DNA of 32,238 bases from contig PMWW01000203.1 of assembly GCA_003165795.1 (NCBI GenBank), positions 266 to 32,503 on the forward strand. Direction: 5' to 3'. Positions within the stretch are counted from its first letter, which is position 1, and every line of letters begins with the position of its first letter. Source of the stretch: Acidobacteriaceae bacterium. Its GTDB lineage: Bacteria > Acidobacteriota > Terriglobia > Terriglobales > Acidobacteriaceae. The notes beneath the pieces are model-generated. The model searched no databases and was not told the DNA's origin. It worked only from the letters and a program-made list of their open reading frames with translations. Shown piece after piece: positions 4,856-22,535 of the stretch. Position numbers and translations under genes: made by a program.

Positions 4856-6055
4856 ATGAAGAAGCTTTTTGTTTTGTCGATCGGCATGATGGTTCTTCTT
4901 GCCGTAACCCTTCCTTTGGCAGCACAATCGCCAGCCTCGAGTCACACCGTTTACCCCCCTATTAAGGTTGCGCCAGGGCCACAAAATCCGAACAATCCCA
5001 GCGGTATTTTGCCGCGTTCGTTCAAGGCTGCCTACGGGTTCAATCAGATTAATAACCAGGGACAAGGGCAGACCATCGCCTTGGTGGACGCCTACGACGA
5101 TCCGAACATCGCGTCTGACCTGGCGTTTTACGCGAGTTATTTCCACATCGCGCCCTGCAACTTTACCAAGGTGAAATTGGGCACCGTGACCGGCCAAGGT
5201 TGGGACCTGGAAGAGTCCTTGGATGTCCAACAAGCCTGCGCCCTGGCGCCACAAGCCAACATCGTCCTGGTGGAAGCCGCCAGCAGTAACGATACCGATC
5301 TGTTTACCGCCGTCCAGGTCGCCACGGCAGCGCCGTATAACGCTACTGTGGTTTCCATGAGTTGGGGCGAAGGGGAGTTCAGCGGCGAACTGGCGGATGA
5401 CAGCTATTTCTGTAACATACTTAACGGAAACGGGCAGCCCGTGACCTTTGTGGCCGCCAGCGGCGACGGTGGACACGGCACTATCTATCCCTCGGCTTCG
5501 CCTTGTGTGGTTGCCGCCGGCGGTACGTCGCTGGTCTTGAGCACCACTCTTCCTCTGGGAAATCCCTTTCTGTTGAACTACGGACATGAGACAGCATGGG
5601 ACGGCAGCGGCGGCGGAGTCAGCCCCTACGAGTCGCAGCCCTCATTCCAGAATCCGGCGTGCGCAACCTGGTCAACCAGTGGTCGTTGCCTTCCCGACAT
5701 CGCCTCGGATGCCAATCCGGGTACCGGCGTTCCGGTGTATGACACCTTCAGCTACGGTGGCTGGGTCCAGGTCGGCGGCACCAGCGTAGCCTCCCCCGAT
5801 TGGGGTGGGTTCTTTGTCCTGGTGAACTCGGCGCGTGCGATCGCCGGTAAAGGCTCGCTCAGTCAGGCGGACTATGATCTGTACCAGATTTACTACTCCT
5901 CGAATTACGCCAATGATTTCCATGACATTACGTCGGGAACCAACGGTGGTTGCGGATCGCAGTGTGACGCCGGTCCCGGCTACGATTTGGTGACCGGAAT
6001 CGGCACCTACCAGGCCAATGTTTTGTATTCAGCATTGGTCGCTGCCACAAACTAA
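4856..6055 (+). CDS. Secreted S53 (sedolisin) family serine-carboxyl peptidase
   Basis: A 399-residue protein with a signal peptide (residues 1-23, ending LAAQ). The sedolisin triad is in place: Glu119 and Asp123 in WDLEESLDVQ, oxyanion Asp204 in ASGDGG, and Ser310 in GGTSVASP. The C-terminal calcium-site region is present (FHDITSGTNGGC and GPGYDLVTGIG). Sedolisins are acid-active endopeptidases, which suits an acidic soil habitat. The long N-terminal activation propeptide of most S53 zymogens is absent: the catalytic domain starts within about 45 residues of the signal peptide. GAGGA lies about 10 bp before the ATG, and a strong terminator follows. Confidence 0.93.
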   Translation: MKKLFVLSIGMMVLLAVTLPLAAQSPASSHTVYPPIKVAPGPQNPNNPSGILPRSFKAAYGFNQINNQGQGQTIALVDAYDDPNIASDLAFYASYFHIAPCNFTKVKLGTVTGQGWDLEESLDVQQACALAPQANIVLVEAASSNDTDLFTAVQVATAAPYNATVVSMSWGEGEFSGELADDSYFCNILNGNGQPVTFVAASGDGGHGTIYPSASPCVVAAGGTSLVLSTTLPLGNPFLLNYGHETAWDGSGGGVSPYESQPSFQNPACATWSTSGRCLPDIASDANPGTGVPVYDTFSYGGWVQVGGTSVASPDWGGFFVLVNSARAIAGKGSLSQADYDLYQIYYSSNYANDFHDITSGTNGGCGSQCDAGPGYDLVTGIGTYQANVLYSALVAATN

Positions 6056-6110: not shown

Positions 6111-6418
6111 GCATTGTTCCGGGAATCCACACCTCCCGCACGATAACGATTCCAGAGTTCAGCGGAATTGCGTCGAGATTTTTCATTCCCTTCGGCCTCG
6201 GGGTCGCAGCACTGTTTCAGGAGTTCGGCCTGATCGCCTTTTCAAAGCTGCTCAACGTCCTGCAGTTTCTTGCATCTTCACAACTCATGGGAAGCGCCTC
6301 CGGCGCGACTCCGCGTTGCCGTGCTCGTCTAGTCTAAAGAAGCTACCTATAGCTGCGCTCGTCAAGATAGTTCAGCAGTTGGCCTCGCTTCCGCGGGGCA
6401 TCGCGTAAAATCGTGGCC
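6111..6418. other. Intergenic region upstream of the Crp/Fnr gene
   Basis: There is no plausible gene. It should hold the promoter of the regulator downstream, but no clear -35/-10 pair or FNR-type palindrome stands out. Confidence 0.4.
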
Positions 6419-7129
6419 ATGGCCTCAGAGCAGGAAGCCGCCTCGCTCGCCGTACTGAAGCGTGTGGCCCTTTTTTCCAGTTTGTCGGAGCCGGAGTTCG
6501 CGTTCCTAACCACACACCTTTTACAGCGCAAATACGCCGCTGGCGAGCTGATCTTCGGCGAAGGCGACCCTTGCGCGGGCCTTTATGTCGTGCAGTCGGG
6601 GAATGTGCGCATCTTTAAGAGCTCGGCCGGCGGACGTGAGCAAGTGCTTTCGATTGACGGCCCCGGCAGCTCAATTGCCGAACTTCCGGTCTTCGATGGC
6701 GGAAACTATCCGGCCTCAGCCCAGGCGGTCAGCGACAGCACACTGCTGTTCTTCAGCCGCCAGGATTTCCAGGCTCTGTGTCTACAGCATCCTCAGGTTG
6801 CGTTGAAAGTTCTGGGCGTAATTGGCAGTCGCCTGCGGCGATTAGTGGGCATCATCGAAGAACTTTCGTTCACCACGGTGCGGCACCGGCTCATCGCTCT
6901 TCTGGTGCGGCTGGCCAAGGCCGAGGGTGTTCGCAATGGAGATGCCATCACGCTGACGCTTCCGATGAACAACAGTGAACTGGCGGCGCAGATCGGTACC
7001 GTGCGCGAACTGGTATCGCGCAACCTCAGCCGGCTGCAGGCTGAAGGACTAATTCAAGTTGACAACCGCGCGCTGGCGATTCCATCGCTGAAGCGCCTCG
7101 AATTGGAACTCGAGGCTTCCGGCGGTTGA
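6419..7129 (+). CDS. Crp/Fnr-family transcriptional regulator
   Basis: A 236-residue protein with an N-terminal cyclic-nucleotide-binding-like fold (about 15-130), a dimerisation helix (about 130-155) and a C-terminal Crp-type winged helix-turn-helix. The recognition helix is TVRELVSRNLSRL (194-206) after NNSELAAQIG. The N-terminal FNR cysteine cluster is absent. The cassette equivalent to the cAMP-phosphate site (AELPVFDGGNYPASAQA) lacks the conserved Arg, so it is probably neither a cAMP receptor nor an Fe-S oxygen sensor. The next gene encodes a RIC di-iron repair protein, so DNR/NnrR-like sensing of nitrosative stress is a reasonable inference. The start is ATG 6419 or GTG 6413; no clear ribosome-binding site decides it. 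Confidence 0.9.
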   Translation: MASEQEAASLAVLKRVALFSSLSEPEFAFLTTHLLQRKYAAGELIFGEGDPCAGLYVVQSGNVRIFKSSAGGREQVLSIDGPGSSIAELPVFDGGNYPASAQAVSDSTLLFFSRQDFQALCLQHPQVALKVLGVIGSRLRRLVGIIEELSFTTVRHRLIALLVRLAKAEGVRNGDAITLTLPMNNSELAAQIGTVRELVSRNLSRLQAEGLIQVDNRALAIPSLKRLELELEASGG

Positions 7130-7199
7130 GGCTTCGTGCTTCCCTCTAGTACCCGAAACCCTGCCGTCCGTTGCCATGGCGGCGGAGGCGCATCGGTCA

Positions 7200-7284
7200 C
7201 CTTGCGGCTTTGCGGCGTATTCGAACCGCAAGGCTCCTCTGCCAACGGCTCGCCGTTCGCTGGGTAAGCACCGGCCCGCGGGCC
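7200..7284. promoter_or_regulatory. Palindromes between regulator and RIC gene
   Basis: There is an 8-bp inverted repeat CCTTGCGG/CCGCAAGG (7200-7207 with 7226-7233) and a perfect 12-bp palindrome GGCCCGCGGGCC (7273-7284) upstream of the RIC gene. Neither resembles a TTGAT-N4-ATCAA FNR/DNR box, and none was found. They could be terminator or operator elements; GC-rich palindromes also arise by chance. Confidence 0.3.
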
Positions 7285-7419
7285 TGCGGAGTTGTCGCGA
7301 ACTGAAACAATTTCGCCTACCCGTGACCGAAGTCATAGTTGCCGTGCGGCAGGGCCGCTAGTCTGCATTTGAAGGCGGGAACCGGCGCAATGCTCCGATA
7401 CTCGCGGGAGGAAATAGAC

Positions 7420-8142
7420 ATGACGATTGCAACGACCAAGACCGTGGGCGAGATCGCCGCCGCAATGCCCAGCGCCACGCGCGAATTCGAAAAGCTTGGA
7501 ATCGACTACTGCTGCGGCGGAAGCCGCACCCTGGGCGAAGCTTGCGCGCAAGCCAACATCTCGATTGATGAAGCCCTCACACGCCTGGAGAAGAGCCTGG
7601 CATCTACTCAGCCCGGCGAAAGCAGCGACTGGCAAAACCAGTTGCTGGCTGACCTAATTGCTCACATCACCAGTACCCATCACGTGTTTGTACGCGAAGA
7701 GGGCCCGCGCATCGAGGCGCTCGCCGCCAAAGTAGTCGGCGTACACGGGAAGAACCATCCAGAACTCCTCCAGGTTCAGCAAACCTTCTCCGCGCTTGCC
7801 GAAGAGTTGAGAGTTCATCTCATGAAGGAAGAGCAGGTCCTTTTTCCCTACGTGCTGCGCATGGAAGAGAGCGTGGTGGCCGGTGAGCCTGCTCCGCCGG
7901 CGATGTTCGGTAGCGTTGTGAATCCCGTGCGCATGATGATGCAGGAGCACGACGGTGCGGGCGATTCGCTCCGCTCCTTGCGCGCCATCACCTCCGACTA
8001 CAAACTTCCTGAAGACGCTTGCATCAGCTACGGCACCCTCTATCAGGCGATCCAAGGCTTCGAAGCCGACTTGCACCAGCACATTCATCTGGAAAACAAC
8101 ATTCTCTTTCCGCGGGCCGTCGCCATGGAAGCAAGGCGGTAG
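7420..8142 (+). CDS. ric: RIC family (ScdA/YtfE-type) iron-sulfur cluster repair di-iron protein
   Basis: A 240-residue protein. The N-terminal ScdA/DUF542 domain carries the signature LGIDYCCGG with Cys31-Cys32. The following hemerythrin-like four-helix domain (about 70-235) has the di-iron ligand pattern: His87/His88, RVHLMKEEQVLFP (His133, Glu137/138), QEHD (His177) and HQHIHLENNILFP (His219-223, Glu225). RIC proteins repair Fe-S clusters damaged by nitric oxide or oxidants and may release NO. GGGAGGAAATAGAC precedes ATG 7420, which decides this start over in-frame codons upstream. The Crp/Fnr-type regulator immediately upstream is its likely controller. Confidence 0.95.
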   Translation: MTIATTKTVGEIAAAMPSATREFEKLGIDYCCGGSRTLGEACAQANISIDEALTRLEKSLASTQPGESSDWQNQLLADLIAHITSTHHVFVREEGPRIEALAAKVVGVHGKNHPELLQVQQTFSALAEELRVHLMKEEQVLFPYVLRMEESVVAGEPAPPAMFGSVVNPVRMMMQEHDGAGDSLRSLRAITSDYKLPEDACISYGTLYQAIQGFEADLHQHIHLENNILFPRAVAMEARR

Positions 8143-8182: not shown

Positions 8183-9007
8183 TCACAGTGGCTCCATTGG
8201 TCGGTCCGTATGAAAGTACTTCTTGTAAGCCGCAATCCAGTCGGTGGCAAGCTCGCGTTGCGCGGTTGAAAGGTCGATCTTGTCTCGGCAGACGAGTTGA
8301 TGGAGGCGATCTTCCAAGGCATCCTTCACCCGCATGTTCCAACCGTCCAGCGAGGAAGGTTCAGGCCAGAGGTTGCGGATGTCGCCGGTACCGCCTAGCT
8401 GCGGACTGATGAGATAGTCCAATTCATAGTCCTTCGATTGACTGCCGGCCATTCCGTATTCCTGGAAAACCTCCTGTCTGACCGAGGCCGGGACTACATG
8501 AGTGTCATCGCTGTATCTCATCGTGCAAACTTCGCTGGTGCTCAGCGGATGAGCAACGCCCGGCGTCAGACGCCGGTCCGGAACGGCCCCGGCGGTCCCG
8601 CGAAAACCCCGCGCCGCGGACGCGGGTGGCGATACGAAGTGATGCGCAATGGATGTTCCCAAAGCTACAACGAGGACCATCGCGCCGACATAGGCCAACC
8701 TTCCGCTAGCAAACGCTCGCTGGAATGGTTGCAGCCACGGGCTGTGGAGTACAGGCGCCGGAGGCTGCGCCAGTCGAGCTTTCAGCAACGCCCGGGGCCC
8801 GGCGCTCGGCGGCAGTTGAGCATCGAGAGTTCGATGGTGCACCTCCACGAACTCAGCAATCGTCTCCTCTAGCTGTCTCAAGCGGGTGCGGCAATCCCAA
8901 CATGCGGCAAGATGTGTGTTTACTTGCGAAACGTTCCGGGATGAAAGTTCACCATCCGCAAACCGAAGCAACTCTTCGTCTGACCGGTGAGCGTATTCGC
9001 TCCTCAT
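8183..9007 (-). CDS. zf-HC2 anti-sigma factor with C-terminal HNH-like extracytoplasmic domain
   Basis: A 274-residue protein in three parts. The N-terminal zinc-binding anti-sigma domain has His32-x3-Cys36-x2-Cys39 (HLAACWDC). One transmembrane helix spans about 104-121. The outer C-terminal domain (about 157-267) contains EVCTMRYSDDTHVVPASVRQEVF, YELDYLISPQLGG, RNLWPEP, KDALEDRLHQLVC and AQRELATDWI. That block resembles a stand-alone HNH-fold family usually reading YEVDHLI-LELGGSN--NLWP; here the catalytic-type His is Tyr198. It follows the sigma gene by 4 bp. Its GGAGGTG overlaps the sigma stop codon, which indicates translational coupling and decides the ATG at 9007. It probably sequesters that sigma factor and senses something outside the cytoplasm. 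Confidence 0.88.
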   Translation of the reverse strand: MRSEYAHRSDEELLRFADGELSSRNVSQVNTHLAACWDCRTRLRQLEETIAEFVEVHHRTLDAQLPPSAGPRALLKARLAQPPAPVLHSPWLQPFQRAFASGRLAYVGAMVLVVALGTSIAHHFVSPPASAARGFRGTAGAVPDRRLTPGVAHPLSTSEVCTMRYSDDTHVVPASVRQEVFQEYGMAGSQSKDYELDYLISPQLGGTGDIRNLWPEPSSLDGWNMRVKDALEDRLHQLVCRDKIDLSTAQRELATDWIAAYKKYFHTDRPMEPL

Positions 9008-9011
9008 AGTT

Positions 9012-9596
9012 TCACCTCCCATCGGCGCGTCCCAGACGCGCCAGTGAGCGAGCCAGCGAGGCCGCTATGCTGCCCAGCGACATGCCAAGAACGTCGGCAA
9101 TCTCCCGATACCTCAGCCCTTCCGCCCGCAGGCGGAGACAACGCTGGTCCTGCGCGGGCAGGGCTTGCAGCACCGCCAGCAGGCGTATCTGTCGCTGGCT
9201 GAAGGCCAACTGTTCTTCCGGGCTGGGAGCAGGATCGGGATGGACTTCCGCGCCCATCGCTTCCAAGTCAACCGTGTCCCGGCGTCTTCCGTTTCCTGAT
9301 AATCTTTTCAATGCCAGATTGTGAGCAACCCGAAAAAGCCAGCCGCGAAGATTGTGCCGCGACCGCCCCTGTTGCATATGTTGAAGCAGCGCCAGGAACG
9401 CCTCCTGAATAATCTCCTCGCCGTCAGCACTGGAAAGCCCAAACGAAAGGACATATCGCAGAAGGCGGTTCCGAAGCTCATCAAAGAGGCCGATGATTTC
9501 CTCTTCGAGCTCGGAGGGAGCAGCCGAACTCTGGCGGAGCTGCGCGGACGACAGCGCCAGCCGGATGGTTGAGTCAGACGGAGAAATTGGGCTCAC
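9012..9596 (-). CDS. ECF RNA polymerase sigma factor
   Basis: A 194-residue protein with sigma region 2 (about 35-105, including SSADGEEIIQEAFLALLQHM and LRGWLFRVAHNLAL) and region 4 (about 135-190, LPAQDQRCLRLRAEGLRYREIADVLGMSLGSIAASLARSLARL). There is no region 1.1 or 3. The GTG start at 9596 has GGGAGG about 11 bp upstream. It is translationally coupled to the downstream zf-HC2 anti-sigma factor. A TonB-dependent receptor is transcribed divergently about 220 bp away, which makes that gene a candidate regulon member. No ECF-type promoter was confidently seen. Confidence 0.92.
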   Translation of the reverse strand: MSPISPSDSTIRLALSSAQLRQSSAAPSELEEEIIGLFDELRNRLLRYVLSFGLSSADGEEIIQEAFLALLQHMQQGRSRHNLRGWLFRVAHNLALKRLSGNGRRRDTVDLEAMGAEVHPDPAPSPEEQLAFSQRQIRLLAVLQALPAQDQRCLRLRAEGLRYREIADVLGMSLGSIAASLARSLARLGRADGR

Positions 9597-9819
9597 CTCT
9601 TCTGGGTCCTCCCGATAGTACAGTCTTTTGGCGAACGTTTTGTTCGGCCTTTTTGTTCACTCGGTTGCAGGACTTTTCCGGGACAACTGGATGGATGATT
9701 GTCCCTCGGCGAATTAACTCTGAACAACCACGGAGCACGAGGAATATTCTAATGGAGCCGATGGTGCGGGTCGCGCTGGATAAGATTCCGGGAACTGGTG
9801 CTCCGAGGGTTAATGCTGA

Positions 9820-21716: not shown

Positions 21717-22535
21717 CTATATAAACTGTTTTAGCGTCTCCCGCAGCGTTTCATACGCTCGAAACAACAATGACTTGGTCGCCGATTCACTCAACTTCAA
21801 CACCGTCGCGATCTGTTTGTAATCCAGGTTCTGGTATTTATGCATGAGCACGGCCGCGCGCTGACGTTCGGGCAGCGCCTCCACTTGGCGGCGAATGGCC
21901 GTCAGACGCTCCCGCCGGAGAATGATCTGCTCGGCGTTCAAACTGCCATCGGCGACGTCCATGGTCATGCCGGTATCGCTGTCCGGCTCGTCGATGTTGA
22001 CCGTGTTCTCCGGCCGCTCGTGCTTGGTATCGCGGGCGTGATTCACGGCCAGGTTGGTCGCAATGCGATACAGCCAGGTAGTGAACTTAGCGCTCGCCGC
22101 GTAACCCTGTCGCGAGCGATAGACCCGCAAGAAAACTTCCTGAGCGAGTTCCTCGGCCACCCCCTGGTTACGGGTCATGCGATACATGAAACTGACCATG
22201 GGCCGGCGATACTTTTCGACCAGATAATCGAATGCGGTGTCGTCGCCGGAGGCCACACGCAACATGACCTCGGCGTCGCTTAGCATCTCTAAAACGACCG
22301 TTTCGGCCAATTCGCCCCGCAGTGCGGTGGGCGGCGACGGTGTCCCTGGAACGGCGCCCCCAACCAGCAGGCTTCGATCTAGTGCGATGCTGCCCACATC
22401 GGCTGTAACCCTCGCCCTGCCAGAAAGTTGCGCCGCAGCTGCCCAGCTTTCTGCCGGCCTCGGACGCGCCGGCTTGGGGGCGCGATCAATAAGATCGGGA
22501 GCCTCTTTGTCGCGTTTTGGCTCGTCGCTCCCCAT
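21717..22535 (-). CDS. ECF RNA polymerase sigma factor with N-terminal extension
   Basis: A sigma-E-like factor with region 2 at about 95-170 (FDYLVEKYRRPMVSFMYRM, EELAQEVFLRVYRSR, KFTTWLYRIATNLAVNHAR) and region 4 at about 215-270 (LPERQRAAVLMHKYQNLDYKQIATVLKLSESATKSLLFRAYETL). The frame gives 272 residues, of which the first 80 or so are Ala/Pro/Arg-rich and unlike the family. Typical relatives begin near MLSDAEVMLRVASGDD (residue 84, position 22286). Neither start has a strong ribosome-binding site, so the true N-terminus is open. It heads an operon with its anti-sigma and a DUF3106 gene. Confidence 0.9.
   Translation of the reverse strand: MGSDEPKRDKEAPDLIDRAPKPARPRPAESWAAAAQLSGRARVTADVGSIALDRSLLVGGAVPGTPSPPTALRGELAETVVLEMLSDAEVMLRVASGDDTAFDYLVEKYRRPMVSFMYRMTRNQGVAEELAQEVFLRVYRSRQGYAASAKFTTWLYRIATNLAVNHARDTKHERPENTVNIDEPDSDTGMTMDVADGSLNAEQIILRRERLTAIRRQVEALPERQRAAVLMHKYQNLDYKQIATVLKLSESATKSLLFRAYETLRETLKQFI

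Follow-up and report, generated by a model that had tools for sequence, protein, structure and literature searches.

An anti-sigma factor of the Acidobacteriota with an HNH-type domain that has probably lost catalysis

An open reading frame (9007..8183, minus strand) in a 32,238-nucleotide stretch of DNA from a soil bacterium of the Acidobacteriaceae, here called the window, encodes an anti-sigma factor whose zf-HC2 motif is followed by a single membrane helix and a C-terminal domain. It is probably a zinc-type, membrane-anchored anti-sigma factor in which an HNH-type domain has been exapted, with loss of catalysis. The genes for the fused anti-sigma factor, an ECF sigma factor and, in most cases, an outer-membrane receptor make up a conserved module (Table 1). 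We consider it probable that a nuclease domain has here been converted into an envelope sensor which no longer cuts and which controls the receptor.

Table 1. Coordinates of the module and its parts in the window.
Feature	Position	Strand	Basis
Anti-sigma factor, 274 aa	8183..9007	-	ORF translation; NCBIfam anti-sigma models, all below cut-off
Zinc-binding anti-sigma motif (zf-HC2), H32-x3-C36-x2-C39	8891..8914	-	Sequence
Single transmembrane helix (predicted), aa 104-122	8642..8698	-	Hydropathy maximum, mean 1.84 over 19 residues
HNH-like (beta-beta-alpha) extracytoplasmic domain (predicted), aa 143-274	8186..8581	-	AlphaFold2; homology to stand-alone Asp-His proteins; weak structural neighbours
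Asp197-Tyr198	8414..8419	-	Stand-alone relatives have Asp-His at the matching place
Cys161, likely disulfide partner of Cys240	8525..8527	-	Paired retention or loss in relatives
Cys240, likely disulfide partner of Cys161	8288..8290	-	Paired retention or loss in relatives
ECF sigma factor, 194 aa, directly upstream of the anti-sigma gene	9012..9596	-	Pfam
Divergent outer-membrane receptor, TonB-dependent type (CarboxypepD_reg + Plug), 792 aa	9820..12198	+	Pfam
ECF-type promoter-like site, TGAAC-N16-GAATA	9721..9746	+	Only zero-mismatch place in the window; 73 bp before the receptor start codon

The window protein is an anti-sigma factor

A preliminary description of this DNA had named the protein an anti-sigma factor, in agreement with the zf-HC2 motif, the membrane helix and the adjoining ECF sigma gene. 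The HxxxCxxC motif of the zinc-type anti-sigma (ZAS) factors is present as H32-C36-C39, and the Pfam zf-HC2 model matches with an E-value of 0.0047 (17.4 bits, under the 22.2 cut-off); the same model exceeds its cut-off in four of seven fused relatives scanned. Two NCBIfam models, NF052375 (E 8.7e-9) and the ChrR family model TIGR02451 (E 6.5e-8), also match below their cut-offs, and the Pfam FecR model does not match the window protein at E<=1. A start five residues earlier is also possible, there being an in-frame ATG at 9022. The five stretches singled out in the preliminary description (VPASVRQEVF, LISPQLGG, RNLWPEP, KDALEDRLHQLVC and ATDWI) are all found in the translation, and the pair expected to be Asp-His is indeed Asp-Tyr at residues 197-198, within YELDYLI. 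The C-terminal domain was correctly recognized, and its length is about 132 residues (143-274) rather than the 110 given.

Convergent with the anti-sigma gene are a Crp/Fnr-type regulator followed by a ScdA_N-hemerythrin protein (6413-8142), and a subtilase-type peptidase (Pfam Peptidase_S8, E 4.6e-9) is encoded at 4856-6055. A second, distant ECF sigma-like stretch, 25% identical to the sigma factor studied here, is located at 21756-22223 on the minus strand.

The C-terminal domain is predicted to have an HNH-type fold

The C-terminal domain of the window protein is covered by no Pfam, NCBIfam or PHROGs family above cut-off, the HNH-type models of Pfam included; the sole Pfam match in this part is a very weak one to Endonuclea_NS_2 over residues 187-225 (E 0.079, 15.2 bits against a cut-off of 27). 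When 64 members of the family were searched, weak HNH matches were seen in 31 and Endonuclea_NS_2 matches in 33, with best E-values of 0.0015 and 1.7e-4, respectively. A profile search of PDB sequences placed Cas8f-HNH at the top with a non-significant E-value of 0.67, level with a designed protein, and its alignment sets the DHL of the family opposite the HHI of Cas8f-HNH.

Structure prediction, proposed in the preliminary description as a check, gave a beta-beta-alpha core and no unrelated fold. The AlphaFold2 model of the window domain, built with 64 sequences (pLDDT 90.4, pTM 0.85), has strands at residues 194-198 and 213-217 followed by a helix at 225-240, and D197 and Y198 sit at the end of the first strand, where the catalytic pair of HNH-type enzymes is located. 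An intact homologue from a phage contig is predicted to have the same strand-strand-helix order (pLDDT 95.8). Using Foldseek and VIA-align, HNH and related nucleases are the top matches to the window domain, with weak scores (best E 0.9, Z 4.0); the intact homologue also finds HNH nucleases first in the PDB (best E 0.09, Z 5.0), with EndoG/NucA-type nucleases lower, and among predicted viral proteins it matches one from an uncultured phage that is named 'HNHc domain containing protein' (E 1e-10). Taken together, the model and the structural and sequence matches support an HNH-type fold, as the preliminary description had suggested. A chance resemblance was rejected on the strength of the alignments and the structure model.

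Fused and stand-alone relatives

The C-terminal 125 residues have matches in 9 of 61 genomes at E<=0.01 (the window's own genome, which is counted, and its relatives), and neither a second copy nor an intact enzyme of its own was found in the window's genome, so that competition with such an enzyme was discarded as an idea. The first loci examined fall into anti-sigma fusions reading E-[LV]-D-Y (L001-L005) and stand-alone proteins with D-H (L006-L010). A profile of the domain matches 119 of the 399 genomes of the window's class at E<=0.001, the window's own again counted. From this class-wide search 100 further places were classified, leaving out nine that are weak, broken or partial, and after two duplicates were dropped the class set comprises 100 fused and 38 stand-alone loci. 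We defined a locus as fused by an HxxxCxxC motif ahead of the domain, so that it is sigma adjacency, and not the motif, that constitutes independent evidence; 95 of the 100 fused loci (all except L122, L144, L146, L156 and L163) have an ECF sigma gene upstream in the same orientation, and none of the 38 stand-alone loci does. This is consistent with the proposed reuse of the domain in an ECF sigma system, and the search for other zf-HC2 fusions that the preliminary description called for thus returned many.

The genome_contigs collection yielded 138 relatives, and we analysed the best 80 of the 138, a sample that says nothing against fusions outside the Acidobacteriota. Seventy-six of these fit the fused pattern, including L239 and L295, whose contigs stop short of the zinc motif; L251 and L281 read YEVDYLI and were counted as fused, and L279 and L300 are stand-alone with D-H. 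Residue 198 in the resulting 78 fused loci is Tyr in 72, His in four and Phe in two. A wider draw of 396 genomes from the phylum gave 15 with a match at E<=1e-20, and three of these belong to other classes than the window: a fusion with Tyr (L316), a fusion with Phe (L315) and a stand-alone protein with His (L314). Two fused loci carry record titles of other taxa, Nevskia soli (L263) and Bordetella parapertussis (L278), and the latter title, of a metagenome-assembled genome, looks wrong, the match lying at the same position as in a genome of the window's class. At L223 (1896-3389) the ECF sigma and anti-sigma parts are in one 498-aa open reading frame, which may be either a true fusion or a sequence error.

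Intact relatives were also seen outside cellular genomes. The IMG/VR collection of viral contigs contains 104 relatives; the 80 of these 104 that were analysed are all D-H (79 by pattern, and L101 by its reading YEVDHLI), and by eye most of these 80 start with a signal-peptide-like stretch. The intact Asp-His protein, encoded in many viral contigs (L041-L120), is a candidate secreted phage nuclease. In one contig its gene is beside those for ribonucleotide reductase and thymidylate synthase (L058, 122-3414) and in another it adjoins an integrase gene (L042, 2920-4668). A single query of named phage records with the phage-contig homologue L045 gave no match, and the phage link therefore rests on the IMG/VR contigs and the predicted phage proteins. 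Plasmid records with a match number 46; among the 40 listed, two are annotated as HNH endonuclease and most as 'hypothetical protein', and three plasmid proteins that we read (from Methylocella, Deinococcus and Streptomyces) are all D-H.

Presumed catalytic positions are relaxed and new positions are fixed in the fusions

To compare residues we used a combined alignment of 196 rows, 55 stand-alone and 141 fused, in which identical domains were merged. The counts exclude L011 and L012 (duplicates), L145, L215, L216 and L217, as well as L214, which did not fit the motif pattern. All 55 stand-alone rows have His at position 198, whereas the 141 fused rows comprise 130 with Tyr, nine with His and two with Phe. 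Over all the sets searched, the fusions with Phe are L228 and L240, from genome_contigs, and L315, from the wider draw of the phylum. The claim that the key His is replaced thus holds for the window protein, in which Tyr198 occupies the place of the general-base His of the HNH superfamily, and for most fusions, but not for the nine rows in which His is still present. Other HNH features are present in all 196 rows, namely an acidic residue before the His position (D197) and a central Asn (N212), and W214, K228, D229 and E232 are likewise invariant throughout. The acidic residue preceding the first His is described as coordinating the metal in many HNH enzymes, and a core-stabilising role has been proposed for the HNH Asn (PMC6212794).

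Three further positions behave differently in the two groups. R170 is present in 55 of 55 stand-alone rows and is variable in the fusions, K177 is present in 53 of 55 stand-alone rows versus 12 of 141 fused rows, and the full set of R170, K177 and E203 is retained in 50 of 55 stand-alone rows versus none of the 141 fusions. Relatives with an intact His, which the preliminary description had, together with nuclease activity, regarded as grounds for refutation, do exist and are mainly the stand-alone proteins; none of the nine fused rows with His198 keeps K177 or the full R170/K177/E203 set.

One interpretation is that the domain is still a nuclease, with Tyr198 serving as the general base, and that the protein is a nuclease anchored in the membrane and facing the periplasm, its activity or its product acting as an input to signalling. 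The candidate metal-site residues D197, N212, K228, D229 and E232 are invariant in 141 of 141 fusions and a minority of fusions have His, and there is a precedent in the HNH enzyme PacI, which is described as having a Tyr positioned as the general base (PMC4081073). With D197 and N212 retained, Tyr198 could in principle still work, and because PacI is described as using a Tyr in this role the label 'dead nuclease fold' cannot rest on Tyr198 alone. A better case for lost catalysis is made by R170, K177 and E203, a set that no fusion retains in full, not even those with His, together with the presence of Phe at position 198 in three fusions; both patterns argue against activity, and we regard a working nuclease as improbable.

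The fusions also have conserved positions of their own. P202 is found in 141 of 141 fusions, where 54 of 55 stand-alone rows have Leu, and W223 is found in 141 of 141 fusions versus 13 of 55 stand-alone rows. Since the enzyme positions are relaxed while P202 and W223 are fixed, we infer that the fusions are not the product of simple decay.

C161 and C240 are both present in all 141 fused rows, and in the 55 stand-alone rows both are kept in 44, both are lost in 11, and one is never present alone. That they are kept or lost together suggests a disulfide and, in turn, an extracytoplasmic location of the domain. A redox or zinc sensor could be envisaged, with the stimulus perceived by the zf-HC2 site and the C161-C240 pair and the nuclease fold serving only as a scaffold, in line with the ZAS motif, the below-cut-off likeness to the ChrR and RsrA models and the invariance of the cysteine pair in the fusions. 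However, the pair looks like an ordinary structural disulfide because so many of the stand-alone rows also carry it, and a sensor of this type leaves both the fixation of P202 and W223 and the invariant active-site remnants unexplained; we consider it very improbable.

The fusions form a single clade

Trees of 151 and 196 rows were built by a quick method with column 198 left out and with about a quarter of the 80 phage-contig loci included. In both trees the fusions form one clade, requiring one change, with a branch support of 99, and a single origin of the fusions is likely. Within this clade the His-bearing fusions are nested in three places inside the Tyr/Phe fusions, and the 196-row tree requires at least six changes among Tyr, His and Phe at position 198. 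Forcing the Tyr/Phe fusions into one clade is marginally rejected (p-AU 0.0485). This result suggests a regain of His in the minority of fusions, but only tentatively, the rejection being marginal and the grouping having been chosen with a tree already at hand; the His may instead have been retained.

Sigma factor, receptor and a promoter-like motif

The sigma factor exceeds the Pfam cut-offs for both Sigma70_r2 (E 1.6e-12) and Sigma70_r4_2 (E 8.7e-11). The product of the divergent gene matches Plug above cut-off (E 6.4e-6) and CarboxypepD_reg below it (E 1e-5, 26.2 bits against 32.3), and no Pfam match to an STN domain was found in any of four receptors scanned (that of the window at E<=1; those of L221, L240 and L263 at E<=0.01). 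A receptor gene is common at this position: among 71 fused loci with room upstream it is divergent in 55, on the same strand in three and lacking in 13, and at most 8 of 72 fused loci have one downstream. The figure of 55 of 71 replaces one of 66 loci obtained by neighbour clustering, which had also joined antisense frames and distant receptor paralogues. Close orthologues of the window's receptor (47-69% identity) are found in 27 of the 78 fused loci from the best 80 of 138 relatives; in the other loci there are distant orthologues or none. The suggestion of a damage sensor, for which we found nothing in support, was set aside, the outer-membrane receptor being the commonest conserved neighbour besides the sigma gene.

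A motif of the form TGAAC-N15-17-GAAT is found between the divergent genes in many loci. Of 72 non-redundant intergenic regions, the window's included, 48 have it in either direction, 37 toward the receptor, 27 toward the sigma gene and 16 in both, these regions being related by descent and the counts therefore not independent events. The spacer of the sigma-ward motif is exactly 16 in all 27 cases, the reversed motif used as a control is present in none of the 72 regions, and the best dyad of five plus four bases is found in 37 of the 72 versus at most four in each of five shuffles; 24 of the 72 regions lack the motif. The window has no sigma-facing TGAAC/GAAT motif, even when two mismatches are allowed. 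Across the window's genome TGAAC-N16-GAATA is not enriched, with two places versus three for the reversed control, and the second of these (L307) has no clear target gene in the list of open reading frames. A wide regulon was therefore discarded, and the motif supports no regulon beyond the receptor.

The divergent receptor in 55 of 71 loci, the shared promoter-like motif and the fixation of P202 and W223 specifically in the fusions would also be accounted for if the domain were a protein-protein adaptor, docking on the periplasmic face of the receptor in the manner of FecR-type regulators and not itself sensing a small ligand or nucleic acid. This overlaps with the envelope sensor that we favour, and the two are not mutually exclusive. 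Nonetheless, 13 of 71 loci have no receptor upstream, close receptor orthologues are restricted to 27 of 78 loci and yet the nuclease core is invariant, and the STN domain is absent from the four receptors scanned, so that we view a pure adaptor as possible and somewhat doubtful.

Discussion

Our preferred explanation is a nuclease-derived, non-cutting envelope sensor, for which we propose the following mechanism. The cytoplasmic zf-HC2 part would hold the ECF sigma factor encoded directly upstream, with the single helix spanning the inner membrane and the HNH-type (beta-beta-alpha metal) domain placed in the periplasm. This domain would have been acquired from a family of secreted nuclease-like proteins. 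In the fusions the place of the presumed general-base His is taken by Tyr (rarely Phe or His) and three further positions that the stand-alone proteins conserve are relaxed, with the presumed metal ligands and the core invariant and the fusion-specific P202 and W223 fixed. On this pattern the domain probably still folds, may bind metal and a ligand, and probably cuts no longer. When a ligand binds, or the adjacent outer-membrane receptor makes contact, the anti-sigma factor would be altered or exposed to proteolysis, and the sigma factor thus freed would activate both the divergent receptor gene and its own operon via TGAAC-N16-GAAT promoters.

As to the ligand, it is conceivable, although we think it unlikely, that the old substrate cleft holds extracellular nucleic acid, or a nucleotide product, uncut and thereby signals the need for an outer-membrane importer of such material, a form of surface signalling that would operate without an STN domain.

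If the sensor interpretation is right, the family is a clear case of a secreted nuclease becoming a signalling domain, with intact relatives extant for comparison, and it provides a large set of natural fusions that probably go back to one origin, along with a promoter-like motif from which the output could be read. Through the fused anti-sigma factor it would also become easier to approach the stimuli of one group of outer-membrane receptors. A search of the literature, whose scope took in little of the subscription literature and which thus does not imply that such proteins are unpublished, returned no title describing an anti-sigma/HNH-like fusion of this kind.

The module appears to work like a cell-surface signalling system. 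As in the FecI-FecR-FecA system (PMC9249621), there is an ECF sigma factor, an inner-membrane anti-sigma factor with a periplasmic C-terminus and a TonB-dependent receptor that is encoded alongside and probably sigma-controlled. Unlike that system, the anti-sigma factor is of the zf-HC2 type without a FecR match and has an HNH-like periplasmic domain, and the four receptors scanned have CarboxypepD_reg and Plug domains without STN. Because neither a FecR part nor an STN domain was found, we do not class the module as a member of the FecIRA group. IutY, an ECF sigma factor with a fused anti-sigma part, resembles L223 in having both functions in one open reading frame; it responds to aerobactin, and the portion of PMC8999054 available mentions no HNH-like domain.

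With the HNH and other beta-beta-alpha-metal nucleases (Cas8-HNH, Gme HNH, EndoG/NucA) the window domain shares the order of the beta-beta-alpha elements, the Asp before the catalytic position and the central Asn, and it differs from them in its Tyr in place of the catalytic His, in the lack of a Pfam HNH-type model at cut-off and in its weak structural scores. PacI is similar in having a Tyr in place of the HNH general-base His (PMC4081073), but it is an active restriction enzyme, and it was not matched in sequence or structure searches with the window domain. The closest likeness in the cytoplasmic part is to the zinc-type anti-sigma factors (ZAS; zf-HC2, ChrR, RsrA), which have the same HxxxCxxC motif and an adjacent ECF sigma gene; unlike these, the window protein is membrane-anchored with a putative periplasmic, nuclease-derived domain. 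The sensor of ChrR is of the cupin type, and RsrA has none.
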